Shown here: positions 30,242 to 35,841 of the stretch, one piece after another
How positions within the stretch are numbered: the first letter of the stretch is position 1
Layout of the letters: each line of letters opens with the position of its first letter
Origin: Prevotella sp.
Lineage (GTDB): Bacteria > Bacteroidota > Bacteroidia > Bacteroidales > Bacteroidaceae
NCBI GenBank assembly: GCA_017462915.1
Contig: JAFTQG010000020.1
Span: 1 to 54,286 of the forward strand
Direction of reading: 5' to 3'
DNA: 54,286 bases
Notes under the pieces: model-generated
Told to the model about the DNA's origin: nothing
Database searches by the model: none
Seen by the model: the letters and a program-made list of their open reading frames with translations, nothing else
Position numbers and translations under genes: made by a program

Positions 30242-30546
30242 GAATAAAATTTCGTTTTCATGCGAAACGGCATGGATATTTTCATGATTATGCAGGAAAA
30301 TCGTGTGGCGGATTGTCTTTTTTCTTTGATTGTCATCCTCTTTTATGTGTTATTCAAGATGCAAGATTTGTAATGGCAGTCGATAAATATGTATGGGTTT
30401 CAGACGGGAAATACTGATGCGTAGATTTAGGCGTTTATGGTAATATGCCCGTAATCAGCATGATATTGCGATATTTCTCTAAGACAAAGTGAAGTGATGA
30501 AATATGAAAAACATGTCTGTTATTTGCCGTTTCGGAAGAAATGTTG
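30242..30546. other. Spacer upstream of sdaA
   Basis: I see no gene, repeat or RNA signal here besides the promoter at its right end. Confidence 0.4.
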
Positions 30547-30554
30547 TAATTTTG
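30547..30554 (+). promoter_or_regulatory. -7 box TAATTTTG for sdaA
   Basis: A TTTG about 20-23 bp upstream can act as -33 element. The box is 28 bp before the chosen ATG at 30582, which argues against the longer reading frame starting at 30504. Confidence 0.75.
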
Positions 30555-30581
30555 CATCCGACAAACGACAGACACACAATC

Positions 30582-31778
30582 ATGAAGACAATCAAGGAAC
30601 TTTACCGTATAGGGCTTGGCCCTTCAAGCAGTCATACCATGGGGCCGCACAAGGCGGCAGGGATATTCGCCTCGCGCCATCCCGATGCCTCGCGTACCGA
30701 GGTGACTCTCTATGGCAGTCTTGCCGCTACGGGCAGAGGACACTTGACCGACAGGGCTATAGAGGATGTCCTGCCCGGGATAAAGATAGTCTGGGAACCG
30801 CGGATTTTCCCTCCTTTCCATCCTAACGGCATGGAGTTCCGTGCGTATTCCGAAGACGGCAGCCTTACGGACACGTGGCGTGTATACAGTGTAGGCGGCG
30901 GAGAACTGAAGGAGGAGGATGCTCGGCATATTGACACACGTGAGGTCTACGACAAGAATACCATGACTGAGATACTCAAATACTGTGAGTGGTCGGGCAA
31001 AGGCTACTGGGAGTATGTCGAGGAGAGTGAGGGGAAAGACATCTGGGACTATCTCCGCGAGGTGTGGCGTGTCATGAAGGCTGCTGTCGAGCGGGGCATA
31101 GATGCCGAGGGAGTGCTACCCGGTCCGTTGCATCTCAGGAGGAAAGCTCCGCAGTATTACATCAAGGCCACAGGCTACCGCGACAGCCTGAAATCCCGCG
31201 GACTGGTATTTGCATACGCCCTTGCCGTCAGTGAGGAGAACGCCTCGGGCAGTCAGATTGTCACAGCTCCCACATGCGGCTCTTGCGGAGTGTTGCCCGG
31301 CGTGCTCTATCATCTGTGGAAGAGCAAGGGCTTCAGTGAGGCGCGCATACTCCGTGCCCTTGCCACGGCAGGACTTTTCGGCAATGTCGTGAAGCACAAC
31401 GCCTCCATCAGCGGTGCCGAGGTAGGCTGTCAGGGTGAGGTAGGAGTGGCGTGTGCCATGGCTTCCGCCGCCGTCAGCCAGCTCTTCGGCGGTTCTCCTG
31501 CACAGATAGAGTATTCTGCGGAGATGGGACTGGAGCATCATCTCGGCATGACCTGTGACCCTGTCTGCGGTCTGGTGCAGATACCTTGCATAGAGCGCAA
31601 CGCCTTTGCCGCGGCGAGAGCCCTTGACTCCAATGTCTTCTCGGCATTCTCCGACGGCACGCACAGGGTGTCTTTCGACAAGGTAGTGGACGTGATGAAG
31701 CAGACTGGGCATGACTTGCCGTCGCTTTACAAGGAGACGGCGGAGGGCGGTCTTGCCAAGGATTTCCGTCAGATGTAA
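30582..31778 (+). CDS. sdaA: L-serine ammonia-lyase (iron-sulfur type)
   Basis: A 398-residue single-chain L-serine dehydratase converting serine to pyruvate and ammonia. The family start IGLGPSSSHTMGPHKAA is clear; the cluster-binding and active-site cysteines lie in APTCGSCGVLPGVLY, HNASISGAEVGCQGEVG and CDPVCGLVQIPCIERNAFA. The beta and alpha domains are fused as in most Gram-negatives. The next genes downstream on this strand are the micro-peptide loci. Confidence 0.94.
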   Translation: MKTIKELYRIGLGPSSSHTMGPHKAAGIFASRHPDASRTEVTLYGSLAATGRGHLTDRAIEDVLPGIKIVWEPRIFPPFHPNGMEFRAYSEDGSLTDTWRVYSVGGGELKEEDARHIDTREVYDKNTMTEILKYCEWSGKGYWEYVEESEGKDIWDYLREVWRVMKAAVERGIDAEGVLPGPLHLRRKAPQYYIKATGYRDSLKSRGLVFAYALAVSEENASGSQIVTAPTCGSCGVLPGVLYHLWKSKGFSEARILRALATAGLFGNVVKHNASISGAEVGCQGEVGVACAMASAAVSQLFGGSPAQIEYSAEMGLEHHLGMTCDPVCGLVQIPCIERNAFAAARALDSNVFSAFSDGTHRVSFDKVVDVMKQTGHDLPSLYKETAEGGLAKDFRQM

Positions 31779-31970
31779 GGGCTTTTCACGCTTCTTCACA
31801 GGGCGAAATGCCTTTTAATCCTTCGGCAATGTCCTGCCTCGCCGCCTGTTACATGGAAAATGTCACGGTTTTGCCTCTTTCTGTAGCCTGATGAGTGATT
31901 TATGTTAAGAGATGGGCATCATTTGTGATATTTTTCATGAAAATATTTGCATTGATACCGAAAATGTATG

Positions 31971-31978
31971 TACATTTG
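31971..31978 (+). promoter_or_regulatory. -7 box TACATTTG of micro-peptide locus 1
   Basis: Fits TAnnTTTG. The region from about 31903 (GTTAAGAGAT, then a GATATTTTTCAT string) to the box is conserved in the second locus, whose box is at 32786. Confidence 0.7.
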
Positions 31979-32013
31979 CACCGAGAAAAAAAATAAAAGG
32001 ATAACAAACAATG

Positions 32014-32027
32014 TCGGCGTGAGCCGA
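32014..32027 (+). promoter_or_regulatory. Leader hairpin with GTGA loop, locus 1
   Basis: TCGGC-GTGA-GCCGA: a 5-bp stem closed by a GNRA-type tetraloop, 50 nt before the peptide start. In locus 2 it recurs as CGGC-GTGA-GCCG at 32828-32839. After it both leaders share GTAATAGGTATTAACATTTA-type sequence up to the ATG. Confidence 0.6.
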
Positions 32028-32076
32028 GAAATAATAGGTATTAACATTTAGGATAACAATTTAAATTATTACGACT

Positions 32077-32175
32077 ATGACAACATTTATGGTAGCAACA
32101 TTTGCAGTCTATGCAGTTGCAATTTTCAACATCTACAAAGTAGTGAAGACAATCAACGGTATGCACAGGAACTGA
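32077..32175 (+). CDS. Micro-peptide P1, 32-residue membrane peptide (locus 1)
   Basis: I do not recognise this family. The peptide begins MTTFMVATFAVYAVAIFNIY, a single hydrophobic segment (about residues 3-20), and ends with a basic tail (KVVKTINGMHRN). Support for coding: 26 of its 32 residues recur in a second copy at 32890 (the first 16 unbroken), the leader and promoter are conserved between the copies, and a terminator follows each locus. It is probably an inner-membrane peptide with its tail in the cytoplasm. It could be a type I toxin-like peptide or a small regulator of a membrane complex; neither is shown. Confidence 0.7.
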   Translation: MTTFMVATFAVYAVAIFNIYKVVKTINGMHRN

Positions 32176-32304
32176 TTCCTGGCAGCCAAGTGTTTAATGT
32201 AAACATACAAGAAGAAGTCATATAGCAATCACATCATTTGTTTTTGGTATACATTCAGATTTCTGTTTTGATATAAAATAGGTATTAACTAAATATTTTC
32301 GATT

Positions 32305-32403
32305 ATGCTTAGATTGATGAAGAAAACCGTTAGATGGTATTTCAATACCTACTCAAATATGTATTCTGACAATTATTATAGTTATTATAATTCCATGGCA
32401 TGA
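32305..32403 (+). CDS. Micro-peptide P2, 32-residue basic Tyr/Asn-rich peptide
   Basis: Unknown family. N-terminal basic part (MLRLMKKTVRWYF) and a C-terminal half rich in Tyr, Asn and Ser (SNMYSDNYYSYYNS). The upstream string AATAGGTATTAAC is the same as in the leaders of both P1 copies, suggesting a shared translation or control signal. Its stop codon overlaps the start of P3 (ATGA), the arrangement of a coupled pair, which is the main argument that it is translated. Confidence 0.5.
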   Translation: MLRLMKKTVRWYFNTYSNMYSDNYYSYYNSMA

Positions 32404-32501
32404 TACAGATAGCGTCTATTGGAATACTTCTGGCCGGACTCGGCCTCGGTATTTATGCCACATACATTGGGCATAAACTGGGAATAAACAGATTTATGTA
32501 A
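32400..32501 (+). CDS. Micro-peptide P3, 33-residue glycine-rich membrane peptide
   Basis: Unknown family. One hydrophobic helix from residue 2 to about 23 with small residues at regular spacing (GILLAGLGLGIYATYIG), a pattern that favours helix packing in membranes, and a short basic end (HKLGINRFM). ATG 32400 overlaps the P2 stop by 4 bp. The terminator at 32594 follows. Not duplicated in locus 2. Confidence 0.5.
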   Translation: MIQIASIGILLAGLGLGIYATYIGHKLGINRFM

Positions 32502-32593
32502 GGATATTCTCCGACGGAGAATCAGACTTCCTGCCGGCATGAAGGACTGTTCCGTACATGTTCTTATGGCAGAAGCGATATAATATGATATGA

Positions 32594-32630
32594 AAATGTC
32601 CGCACATCGTTCGGTGATGTGCGGACATTT
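32594..32630 (+). terminator. Terminator of micro-peptide locus 1
   Basis: Stem AAATGTCCGCACATC / GATGTGCGGACATTT with a 7-nt loop. A nearly identical hairpin ends locus 2. Confidence 0.85.
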
Positions 32631-32785
32631 GCTTTGTTTGCATGCTTGACATTGCCTGATGGGCACTGGTACGGAATAAGCCGATTGTGTCATGTCATGA
32701 CGGTCTCGTGGATGATATAGGTTAAGAGATAGCCTCAGTTAAGATATTTTTCATATAAATATTGCATGGTTATGGGGATTGTACG

Positions 32786-32793
32786 TACCTTTG
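32786..32793 (+). promoter_or_regulatory. -7 box TACCTTTG of micro-peptide locus 2
   Basis: Same position relative to the leader as the locus 1 box at 31971. Confidence 0.7.
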
Positions 32794-32889
32794 CATCAAG
32801 GTAAAAAAGAACAGGATAAACAACAACCGGCGTGAGCCGAGAAGTAATAGGTATTAACATTTAGGATAACAAATTAAATTATTACGACT

Positions 32890-32988
32890 ATGACAACATT
32901 TATGGTAGCAACATTTGCAGTCTATGCAGTTGCAATTTACAACATCTACAAAGTAGTGAAAACAGTTAACGACCTTCGCAGGAACTAA
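32890..32988 (+). CDS. Micro-peptide P1', 32-residue membrane peptide (locus 2)
   Basis: A paralogue of the peptide at 32077: the first 16 residues are identical, F17 is Y, and the tail reads KVVKTVNDLRRN. Most of the 99 bases match, and differences are concentrated in the last third, as expected for a coding duplicate under selection at the protein level. It stands alone between its own promoter (32786) and terminator (33016). Confidence 0.7.
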   Translation: MTTFMVATFAVYAVAIYNIYKVVKTVNDLRRN

Positions 32989-33015
32989 TATCCGCATGGT
33001 CAAGTTTTAATATGA

Positions 33016-33052
33016 AAATGTCCGCACACCGTTCTTTGATGTGCGGACATTT
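33016..33052 (+). terminator. Terminator of micro-peptide locus 2
   Basis: Stem AAATGTCCGCACA / TGTGCGGACATTT followed by CTTTTTT; near-copy of the hairpin at 32594. Confidence 0.88.
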
Positions 33053-33153
33053 CTTTTTTGTGCGCCCTTGGTCTCGTGGCAATAATGTTTCGTGACGGCC
33101 GACTGTTCTTATGGTTGCCAAACGGCATGACAGCTGTCACCCTCAGAAAGGTC

Positions 33154-35841
33154 TTACACTCCACACATCTGCTTGAACGGACAGTAATTGCACCGTGAAG
33201 TGTCGGGCGTGGGCTGGTATTCCCTTTCGGGCTCCATTATCTCTCCTATGAGCTGGGCGAGTTGGTCTATATATTCCGCCTCTATGTCTTTGATGTCTTT
33301 TATCGGGCTCTCTGCTATCTTGAGTATGGGAGAGTAACCCTCGCGCCGTGTCTTCTGCACGAACAGCAGTGCCGGCGATACGGGAAGACCGTTTGGATTG
33401 ATGTCTGTGGAGTTGCGCACGATGATGCTGTAGAGCATCGTCTGCAGGTAGTAGTCGGAATGTTTTGATATGTTGGCCGGGTCGAAGATGTCCTCCACAC
33501 AGTCCATGTCGCCCTGTTCGTTGAATCCGGTCTTGTAGTCCACAGAGCGGATAGTGTATCCGCTCTGCTCGTTGCCTACTATATCGAGGCGGTCTATATA
33601 TCCTCCTATCTTGACTTGTCTGTCTCCTATGGTGAGCGGTGCCGACACTTTCAGCTCCAGTCCGGCAATGCGGAACGGAGCGTTCTGCAGGTCATGGCGC
33701 AGCAGGTCCTTCAGCAGACGTATGATGACACGGCGGTTGATAATCTGTATGCCGGTATATCGCTCCACGTCTCCACCTTGCTGCTTCAGGAACAGTTCCT
33801 CGCGGAATGCCGTATCGACATATCTTGCTATCTTCCCCTCATCCTCGAGCGTGCGTTTCAGTATGGCGGCATGTATGTATCCGTCCTTGTCCATGATGTC
33901 TTTGTATGCAAGTTCGGAGGCATGATGGAAGATATTTCCGAAGATTCTGTTGTCCAGTTCGTCGATGTCGTCCTCCTCCGGCTCGCGGAGTTTCTGCACT
34001 TGCTCATAGTAGTATCTTACTTGACAGCGGAGATATGTAGACAAGGAGGACGGCGAGATGTAGGACATTGCTCCCGGAAGTCTGTCTTGCGGATTCTTTA
34101 CGATGGCTTTCGGCGTTATGATGCTGTTGTCCTGTCCTGCCTGCAGTGATACTCGCCGTATAGGGATGTCGGTTTCGGCCATCAGTTGCAGCATGAATCT
34201 TGACATCTCTCCTGTATTGATGCCTTCCGTAGAGGAGTTATAGGTCAGCGTGACATCCGTTGCCCGTTGCAGCAGGCGATGGAAATAGTATTCGTAGATG
34301 CCTACCTTGTTCTCCACGGTCGTCATGCCGTATGCCTTGCGCACTGTATGCGGTATGAACGAAGAGTCGTCCACGCCTTTAGGCATATTGCCCTCGTTGC
34401 ATGACAGCAGCAGTACATGGTCGAAATCAAGGCAACGGGTCTCGAGCACTCCCATTATCTGTATGCCCTCGATAGGTTCGCCGTGGTAAGGCACTGTCGT
34501 ACTGTTTATTATCTGTGTCAACAGGCGTCGGTATGTCACTATGTCCACTATGAGCGTGCCGTCGGTGATGAGTGTCAGCAGACGTTGCAGTATCTGGTAT
34601 ATGCGGAAGAGGCTTTCCTGGTCGAGAGCGTCGGCCGATATGCCGGCTTGCGCCGTCAGTCTGACGATGTCTTGCAGGTATACGGTCAGTTGTGCATTGA
34701 CATTGGGACAGTCTTGGCCTTCTATCCTTATGTCGTCGATGTCACGGAATATCTGCGGCAGATGTTCCTTGCTGATATATCTCATGAACGGATGACCTTC
34801 CACTCTTCGTGTATACCGCTTGTTGAAGCCTTTATTGCCAGACAGTCTGCCTACGGTCTGCAGCTCGATGAGCATCTGCAGGAGCGATACGGCAGGTGAC
34901 TGGGAGAGCGGATAGCCGGTAGTGATGTTCACTTTCTCTACCTTGTCGGGCAGGGAGCGTATCACTGTCTGGAGCAGATGCTCGTCGGCCATGACGATGG
35001 CGGTCTTCGCACCGTCCTTGTAACGCTTGTTTTCCAGCAGCCAGTCGTGTACATAGCGTGCCTGCATGGTCTCTGTCGGGGCAGACATATATGTCACATG
35101 GCTTGGCGGACACTCCTTGTCGTCCCATTTGAATGTCGCCTTACCGGCAATGTTTATGCGCTCGAAAAGACGCTGCTCCACCTTCTGTGTCCAGTTGAAA
35201 CCACAGAAATAGTATGCGTCATAGTCAAATGTCAGTTCCTTCTCCTCGGCGACATCGCGGTAGAGCATCCCCTCGTATGCCAGTCCGTCGTTACGGAGCT
35301 CCTCACGGAAGATGGTGTATATATCGTGAAGCCTGCTCCAAAGATGCATGAATTTCTCTCGCATCTTCGAGGTACTGTCATCTGTGAAGTTCTTGAAGAA
35401 CGCTTTAAGTGCATCACGCTGTGTATCTGAGAGATACTCATCGTTGTCGAGCTGATGTAAATCCGTGACAACCTGGAACACTTTCTCTGCATCGGCCATG
35501 TTCTTGTCAAGGTCATCAAAATCGGCAAGGAGCAGCTGTCCCCATCCGTAGAATCGGTCAAGGGTCTCCGTGTCATAACCTGTCACCTGCTGAAACACGC
35601 TGTATAGTCGGCATACGAGCAGTATCTGGTCGGCTACCTCAAGGTCGCTGTATCTGCGGAAGAGTTCGGATATGGTGATATGTGCCGGTGACCAGACAGG
35701 TGTCCCGTTGCTGAGCCGTGCCAGAGCTTCGTTGAGAAACAGTGACGCGCGTTTGTTTGGGAATACTACGGCTACTCTCGACAAGTCGTTGCCGAAGCGG
35801 TTGTACAGTTCCTGTGCCAGTTCTTCGATGTATGTCTGCAT
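33154..35841 (-). CDS. addB: AddB-type PD-(D/E)XK nuclease/helicase-like subunit
   Basis: An 895-residue protein of the AddB/PD-(D/E)XK family, partner of the UvrD-like protein encoded upstream. The N-terminal helicase-like half starts VAVVFPNKRASLFLNEAL, without a canonical Walker A lysine loop, as in inactivated AddB helicase domains. The C-terminal nuclease is visible as GGYIDRLDIV...IRSVDYKTGF (D, then DYK). An Fe-S staple is likely, formed by Cys in YLRCQVRYYYE (about 630) and the final CNYCPFKQMC. The complex resects double-strand ends for recombination. It is 106 bp downstream of addA. Confidence 0.85.
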   Translation of the reverse strand: MQTYIEELAQELYNRFGNDLSRVAVVFPNKRASLFLNEALARLSNGTPVWSPAHITISELFRRYSDLEVADQILLVCRLYSVFQQVTGYDTETLDRFYGWGQLLLADFDDLDKNMADAEKVFQVVTDLHQLDNDEYLSDTQRDALKAFFKNFTDDSTSKMREKFMHLWSRLHDIYTIFREELRNDGLAYEGMLYRDVAEEKELTFDYDAYYFCGFNWTQKVEQRLFERINIAGKATFKWDDKECPPSHVTYMSAPTETMQARYVHDWLLENKRYKDGAKTAIVMADEHLLQTVIRSLPDKVEKVNITTGYPLSQSPAVSLLQMLIELQTVGRLSGNKGFNKRYTRRVEGHPFMRYISKEHLPQIFRDIDDIRIEGQDCPNVNAQLTVYLQDIVRLTAQAGISADALDQESLFRIYQILQRLLTLITDGTLIVDIVTYRRLLTQIINSTTVPYHGEPIEGIQIMGVLETRCLDFDHVLLLSCNEGNMPKGVDDSSFIPHTVRKAYGMTTVENKVGIYEYYFHRLLQRATDVTLTYNSSTEGINTGEMSRFMLQLMAETDIPIRRVSLQAGQDNSIITPKAIVKNPQDRLPGAMSYISPSSLSTYLRCQVRYYYEQVQKLREPEEDDIDELDNRIFGNIFHHASELAYKDIMDKDGYIHAAILKRTLEDEGKIARYVDTAFREELFLKQQGGDVERYTGIQIINRRVIIRLLKDLLRHDLQNAPFRIAGLELKVSAPLTIGDRQVKIGGYIDRLDIVGNEQSGYTIRSVDYKTGFNEQGDMDCVEDIFDPANISKHSDYYLQTMLYSIIVRNSTDINPNGLPVSPALLFVQKTRREGYSPILKIAESPIKDIKDIEAEYIDQLAQLIGEIMEPEREYQPTPDTSRCNYCPFKQMCGV

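Follow-up and report, generated by a model that had tools for sequence, protein, structure and literature searches.

Small single-span proteins of the CydX, KdpF and AcrZ type have about 30–50 residues, one trans-membrane helix and no enzymatic domain. CydX and KdpF are encoded together with their partner complex; AcrZ is not. Type I toxins, of the Hok, Ldr, Ibs, TisB, DinQ and TimP kinds, form a second point of reference. Here, we describe a tandem locus in Prevotella that encodes a 32-residue peptide, P1, and a paralogue, P1'. Like CydX, KdpF and AcrZ, P1 is small, conserved, predicted to span the membrane once and free of any enzymatic domain; unlike them, it has no match in Pfam or PDB and does not lie in an operon with a membrane complex. 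With type I toxins it shares small size, hydrophobicity, a leader hairpin, tandem copies and a predicted insertion into the membrane. It differs from them in that its family has no antisense promoter in common, exceeds the cut-off of no Pfam model and, in one of its two clades (clade B), is constrained at synonymous sites much as ribosomal genes are. Unnamed small protein families in microbiome catalogues, for example that of the GMSC paper, are likewise unannotated, lineage-restricted and of membrane type; for P1, the anatomy, synteny and evolutionary rate have been worked out.

Anatomy of the tandem locus

The window, meaning the whole 54,286-nt stretch analysed, corresponds to contig C51; the genome measures 2.93 Mb. 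Two micropeptide units sit in it between a serine dehydratase gene (sdaA) and a PD-(D/E)XK nuclease gene (Table 1). Each consists of a promoter, a leader hairpin, a 32-codon ORF and a terminator, with P2 and P3 additionally present in unit 1. Every feature named in the original prediction of a tandem locus with its own leader and terminator per unit was found, including the ATGA overlap between P2 and a membrane-type, Gly-rich P3. The high identity predicted for P1 and P1' also stands, corrected from 26 to 27 of 32 residues (84%). Leader and ORF together form a direct repeat of 162 nt (32015–32176 and 32828–32989, 93% identity), and the terminators form another (32588–32648 and 33010–33070, 84% identity over 61 nt), with perfect stems of 15 bp and 13 bp. 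Within this genome, P1 and P1' are the only matches to P1 up to E 10. Three ATG ORFs of 28–40 aa with a hydrophobic 18-mer lie on the + strand, whereas 1000 first-order Markov copies averaged 0.17 such ORFs and never had three. Because two of the three are repeat copies, they are not independent, and conservation across species is the stronger evidence.

Table 1. Features of the P1 locus and its flanking genes, in window positions
Feature	Position	Strand	Basis
Serine dehydratase gene (sdaA)	30504–31778	+	Pfam
Unit 1 upstream element TGATTTATGTTAAGAGATG	31896–31914	+	core matched across clade A; putative function
Unit 1 -7 box TACATTTG (TAnnTTTG)	31971–31978	+	box scan
Unit 1 leader hairpin, GTGA loop	32014–32027	+	2 of 6 pairs with two-sided change in clade A
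AATAGGTATTAAC, unit 1	32033–32045	+	repeat; string scan of own genome
P1, 32-aa peptide, single membrane span (predicted)	32077–32175	+	conservation, selection, composition, AlphaFold
Third AATAGGTATTAAC, ahead of P2	32277–32289	+	repeat; string scan of own genome
P2, 32-aa Tyr-rich peptide	32305–32403	+	substitution pattern against G060
P3, 33-aa Gly-rich membrane-type peptide; ATGA overlap with P2	32400–32501	+	comparison with G060
Unit 1 terminator	32594–32630	+	terminator repeat, hairpin
Unit 2 upstream element	32713–32731	+	motif comparison; putative function
Unit 2 -7 box TACCTTTG	32786–32793	+	box scan
Unit 2 leader hairpin, GTGA loop	32827–32840	+	hairpin inspection, fold
AATAGGTATTAAC, unit 2	32846–32858	+	repeat; string scan of own genome
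P1', paralogue of P1, 27 of 32 residues the same	32890–32988	+	alignment, selection
Unit 2 terminator	33016–33052	+	terminator repeat
PD-(D/E)XK nuclease gene ("addB-like"), convergent to units	33154–35841	-	Pfam

AlphaFold models P1 as a single helix (residues 2–31; mean pLDDT 88.6, pTM 0.42). Five P1 variants have KD18 values of 1.5–2.0 on commonly used hydropathy scales, no K or R in the first 12 residues, and two to three of K, R and H in the last 10. P1 is predicted to form one trans-membrane helix in its N-terminal two thirds; by the positive-inside rule, the N terminus would be outside and the basic C terminus in the cytoplasm.

The sequence TAnnTTTG corresponds to the -7 consensus of Bacteroides, as given in the consulted part of PMC7366714. 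It occurs once per unit on the + strand and nowhere on the - strand over 31851–33060, in agreement with the original remark that no antisense promoter was obvious. Farther upstream, both clades have a ATTTATGT[T/C]AAGA-like element at a fixed distance from the -7 box, with the orientation inverted in clade B. In all eight clade A units the core A(T/G)(G/A)TTAAGA lies 67–69 nt upstream of the box; all eight clade B loci have the inverted TCTTGACAT instead, 76 nt ahead of a -7 box (the outer one in L081 and L085). These two loci carry extra copies of about 80 nt between promoter and leader; in L081 two degenerate copies of the box, TGCACGTTGCA, stand at -192 and -114 relative to the ATG, downstream of a TACCTTTG box at -270. 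By eye, a TTGTGTG-CC-CACACAA inverted repeat, which may be an operator, is seen just upstream of the clade B -7 box, for example in L086. A scan of the window's own genome for the upstream element returned 19 sites at one mismatch or fewer (control, 6). Apart from the two P1 units, two of the 17 sites have TAnnTTTG 71–74 nt downstream; about 0.3% of window positions have the box 70–75 nt downstream, and the P1 sites and L177 themselves contributed to the definition of the motif. A regulon sharing this element is suggestive only. Those two sites (G000:C3:8135, that is L177/L179, and L187) precede a secreted-looking 434-aa ORF, for which Pfam gave no match, and a transporter identified by eye as MATE-like.

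In the leaders, two of the six pairs of the clade A hairpin have changed on both strands of the stem, and 87.5% of cells pair (10–40% in slid controls). Its covariation score was reached by 1 of 500 shuffles, but the count of double-change pairs does not exceed that of the shuffles (357/500), and the eight rows are related. In clade B, the 38 nt ahead of the ATG are identical in all eight loci; by eye, the leader at the start of rplU is also fairly constant and A/T-rich in four genomes of this clade. A AGGATAACA block followed by TTAAA recurs ahead of the ORF in both clades, as judged by eye. The string AATAGGTATTAAC, which the original prediction had placed in the leaders, is indeed present in both units, and an ATG follows it within 60 nt at three places in the genome, all at the P1 locus; within the family it is found at the P1 locus of the window's genome (G000) and its nearest relative (G060) only and is not a general feature. 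As a wider motif it was rejected, since 29 of 398 genomes have an exact match before an ATG and the other contexts share nothing by eye. The terminator directly follows P1 in 13 of the 16 units of the family; it stands behind P3 in unit 1 of the window and in its SC0317 counterpart, and one further contig ends too early.

A family of two clades

A search with P1 among 150 genomes of the genus found clear relatives in six (E 1.3e-8 or better, own genome included) and weak matches only in eight more. A seven-row profile was positive in 10 of 398 genus genomes, all at E 2.5e-18 or below and again counting the window's own; another 13 gave nothing beyond weak matches. Of the 398, 176 reach 90% completeness with no more than 5% contamination, and by their listed values four of the 10 carriers belong to this set. 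Among 301 genomes of the taxonomic family, many of them of the same genus, a nine-row profile matched the window's genome only. The weak profile matches L059–L063 were judged to be chance on inspection (weak set L059–L071 and L074–L076, E 0.002–0.05). Scanning the named collection with a degenerate P1 pattern gave 13 stretches in 12 assemblies: Palleniella muris NM73_A23, P. intestinalis PINT, Prevotella sp. SC0317_S2_2, and MAGs that include rumen-style RUG records and one from horse feces. As this pattern demands the N-terminal motif, distant relatives would be missed by it. Together with the window, there are 16 P1 units in 13 genomes, with ORFs of 31–32 codons.

No significant match to the family was found in Pfam, NCBIfam, PHROGs, PADLOC or PDB, which bears out, for these libraries, the earlier statement that no described family fits. 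The best library matches were to DUF7248, at 13–14 bits against a cut-off of 27, and to a PHROG without assigned function (E 0.12). Phage, plasmid and PDB searches also returned no P1 match. The family is not described in the consulted parts of papers on small proteins of Prevotella and B. thetaiotaomicron, microbiome families, type I toxins, CydX/KdpF/AcrZ and Palleniella; a catalogue entry may exist. Judged by its conservation, P1 is a real protein family without a name, in a small group of gut and rumen relatives of Prevotella.

The family falls into two subfamilies, with 17 of 32 columns invariant over nine rows that span both. Clade A comprises eight units (two in the window, two in SC0317, two in P. 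intestinalis, one in P. muris, and L089), has the motif KVVKT(I/V)N, and adjoins sdaA and/or the addB-like gene. The two P. intestinalis copies (L079 and L084) are separated by 8.4 kb that contain other ORFs. Clade B, also of eight units, has the consensus MTTFMVMTSAVY.AALFS.YMVVKTLNGMRG and sits behind a phosphorylase-family gene ("udp"). Comparable flanks elsewhere showed no P1-like ORF by eye, either at addB in 23 relatives (drawn from 32 genomes, other than the window's, in which addB was matched; two flanks fell short of 300 nt) or at udp in 22 readable non-carriers (25 of 30 loci read, three clade A carriers being among the 30 and not read; in the carrier L146, P1 lies outside the 700 nt flank looked at). 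In a tree of 34 udp-like proteins, whose rows are mostly best matches to a clade B query, clade A (three rows) and clade B (seven rows) each form one group, and a 99/94 branch splits both clades and one long non-carrier row from 23 non-carriers. A single origin of P1 is compatible with this tree.

Constraint and inferred expression

The pattern of substitution is that of a protein-coding gene. In clade A, P1 has a pN of 0.00–0.08 and a pS of 0.05–0.47 (29 codons, paralogue pairs included), far from the equal rates of synonymous and non-synonymous change that would have spoken against coding; between the clades, pN is 0.14–0.24 and pS 0.40–0.68. Between the window and G060, four spacers differ by 12–21% and the P1–P2 gap by 5%, while P1 has four changes (three synonymous), P1' a single synonymous one, P2 one synonymous and no non-synonymous, and P3 six (four synonymous, two non-synonymous). 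Substitutions and layout together mark P1 as a true gene for a small protein, under purifying selection and in a transcription unit of its own. P2 and P3 look to be coding as well, from this one genome pair. P3 was found clearly only in G000 and G060 among 150 genomes, with 10 more weak matches, and the other P1 loci compared contained nothing beyond weak matches to P2 or P3. Within genomes, the paralogous units differ by 1% in leader and ORF against 29% in the promoter in P. intestinalis, and by 7% against 25% in the window, a contrast that fits gene conversion of the transcribed part. Strong selection on both copies is a possible alternative.

In clade B, P1 shows only 0–1 synonymous difference per about 20 sites in all 28 pairs. 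For udp, the closely related L077 and L082 give a pS of 0.11 and the other 27 pairs 0.33–0.73. For bL27, pS is 0.00–0.10 (six pairs from the four clade B genomes with a comparable bL27), a range that leaves out L140 (genome of L082) and L141 (genome of L086), of which one is very divergent and one a 16-residue fragment; with both included, values reach 0.63. The bL27 of L140, from the horse-feces MAG, is far from the others and may be a contamination. For bL12, which had no match in four of the 10 carrier genomes, the only clade B pair available gives 0.07, and partial stretches of the same pair give 0.16 for rplJ, 0.14 for rplA and 0.27 for rpoB. By this yardstick, clade B P1 evolves like a ribosomal protein gene, although "like" and "slower than" cannot be distinguished on about 20 sites, where zero differences stand against one or two expected at the bL27 rate.

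Codon usage points in the same direction for clade B, with a CAI for P1 of 0.59–0.64 against a background expectation of 0.36–0.38 from mechanically picked ORFs (P 0.007–0.012) and a ribosomal expectation of 0.72–0.73. In the window genome, the CAI of P1 and P1' (0.625 and 0.576) is not distinct from background (P 0.34 and 0.66) and lies below the ribosomal expectation (P 0.029 and 0.004). Between clade A species, P1 has a pS of 0.23–0.47 (without the window/SC0317 and muris/intestinalis pairs), which falls between bL12 (0.16–0.23) and rplJ (0.25–0.30) on one side and rpoB, sdaA and addB (0.53–0.68) on the other. We infer, with moderate support, very high expression of P1 in clade B only, because the codon test was negative in the window and clade A pS exceeds that of bL12.

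What P1 may do

The reading that we favor, at a probability of roughly 45%, is that P1 is an abundant accessory or regulatory peptide of the inner membrane, with a single span and a partner encoded elsewhere. By analogy with small proteins of the CydX, KdpF and AcrZ type, it would sit beside a larger inner-membrane complex and tune or stabilize it; the P2–P3 pair would be a later addition to unit 1, found only in the window's lineage. The original prediction had offered a membrane-complex regulator as an alternative, and this candidate is now the preferred one; the neighbors checked by Pfam (serine dehydratase, PD-(D/E)XK nuclease, helicase, phosphorylase) are, however, not membrane complexes. 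The window does encode cytochrome bd subunit I, about 2.7 kb upstream of the two units, on the opposite strand and separated from them by sdaA; the ORFs listed for L018 and L019 include no such gene. The lack of a clear P1 match in 388 of 398 genus genomes, many of them incomplete, would be odd for a core subunit.

Tandem copies of a stand-alone gene with a leader hairpin, for a P1-sized peptide with a hydrophobic helix and a basic C terminus, would fit type I membrane toxins, in which P1 and P1' would be restrained by antisense or trans-acting RNA. The consulted part of PMC7366714 reports seven type I-like pairs in B. thetaiotaomicron, and a mechanical list contains two ORFs, 41 and 49 codons long and starting with GTG/TTG, that overlap P1 and P1' in antisense. 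The toxin hint of the original prediction is not supported: an antisense TAnnTTTG is absent from 12 of 16 units, and the other four have it at different places relative to the ATG (-64 in two near-identical loci, -72 in one and +218 in one), so no antisense promoter position is common to the family. The longest exact complement to the leaders within the window is 12 nt, occurring twice; clade B codons lean toward ribosomal usage, with synonymous constraint to match; and P1 matches no known toxin family in the profile libraries searched. We regard restrained toxins as unlikely. Quite unlikely, in our estimate, is a dual-function or regulatory RNA, where the transcript would act and the ORF would be secondary or coupled. 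The invariant clade B leader continues into an ORF that, stop codon included, varies at 3 of 96 columns (one synonymous) and into 12 nt past the stop that vary at one position (eight loci). The transcripts also fold more stably than shuffled copies: with the terminator included, z is -4.97 for G111 and -2.96 for unit 2, and without it -2.37 for unit 1. The near-perfect synonymous conservation indeed resembled RNA function until ribosomal genes served as a control, a caution in itself. bL27 and bL12 have an equally low synonymous rate, so high expression accounts for the clade B constraint without an RNA function; with rplJ and rplA slow too, RNA-level ultraconservation in clade B was set aside. 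Clade A, moreover, has many synonymous changes.

It is also conceivable, if very unlikely, that P1 is a secreted or membrane-active peptide, similar to a modulin or a leaderless bacteriocin, rather than a subunit. Small, cationic, hydrophobic helices in tandem variants, with P2 and P3 in addition, would be in line with this, as would the EamA-type permease-like gene seen by eye a few genes upstream of clade B units (L020, L021, L077, L081 and L087). By eye, the ORF lists of clade A loci L017–L019 contain no gene of this kind, and the clade B helix is not amphipathic (moment 0.19). P1 as the attenuator leader peptide of a downstream gene is hardly credible: a terminator does stand close behind the small ORF in the 13 units noted above, and in L020 and L087 the ORF listed next runs in the same direction, but it is convergent behind unit 2 of the window and in seven of the nine other loci that have one listed (L017, L018, L019, L021, L081, L084 and L085; the contigs of L077 and L079 end too early to be counted).

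Our preference thus stays with the inner-membrane accessory peptide. A more far-reaching version, which we consider doubtful as a whole, is that P1 is a lineage-specific membrane micropeptide that its hosts make in amounts reached by few of their other proteins, with constraint like that of ribosomal proteins extending to synonymous sites and leader, copies kept alike by gene conversion, and an extension to a P1–P2–P3 operon in one lineage; it would then be an abundant and unrecognized part of the inner membrane of Prevotellaceae, with a structural or regulatory role. Genes of this size are often skipped by annotation. Two strain-named carriers, Palleniella muris NM73_A23 and P. intestinalis PINT, make P1 testable. 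Should the peptide prove as plentiful as the pace of its evolution in clade B implies, a major component of the membrane in gut and rumen Prevotellaceae would have been overlooked.
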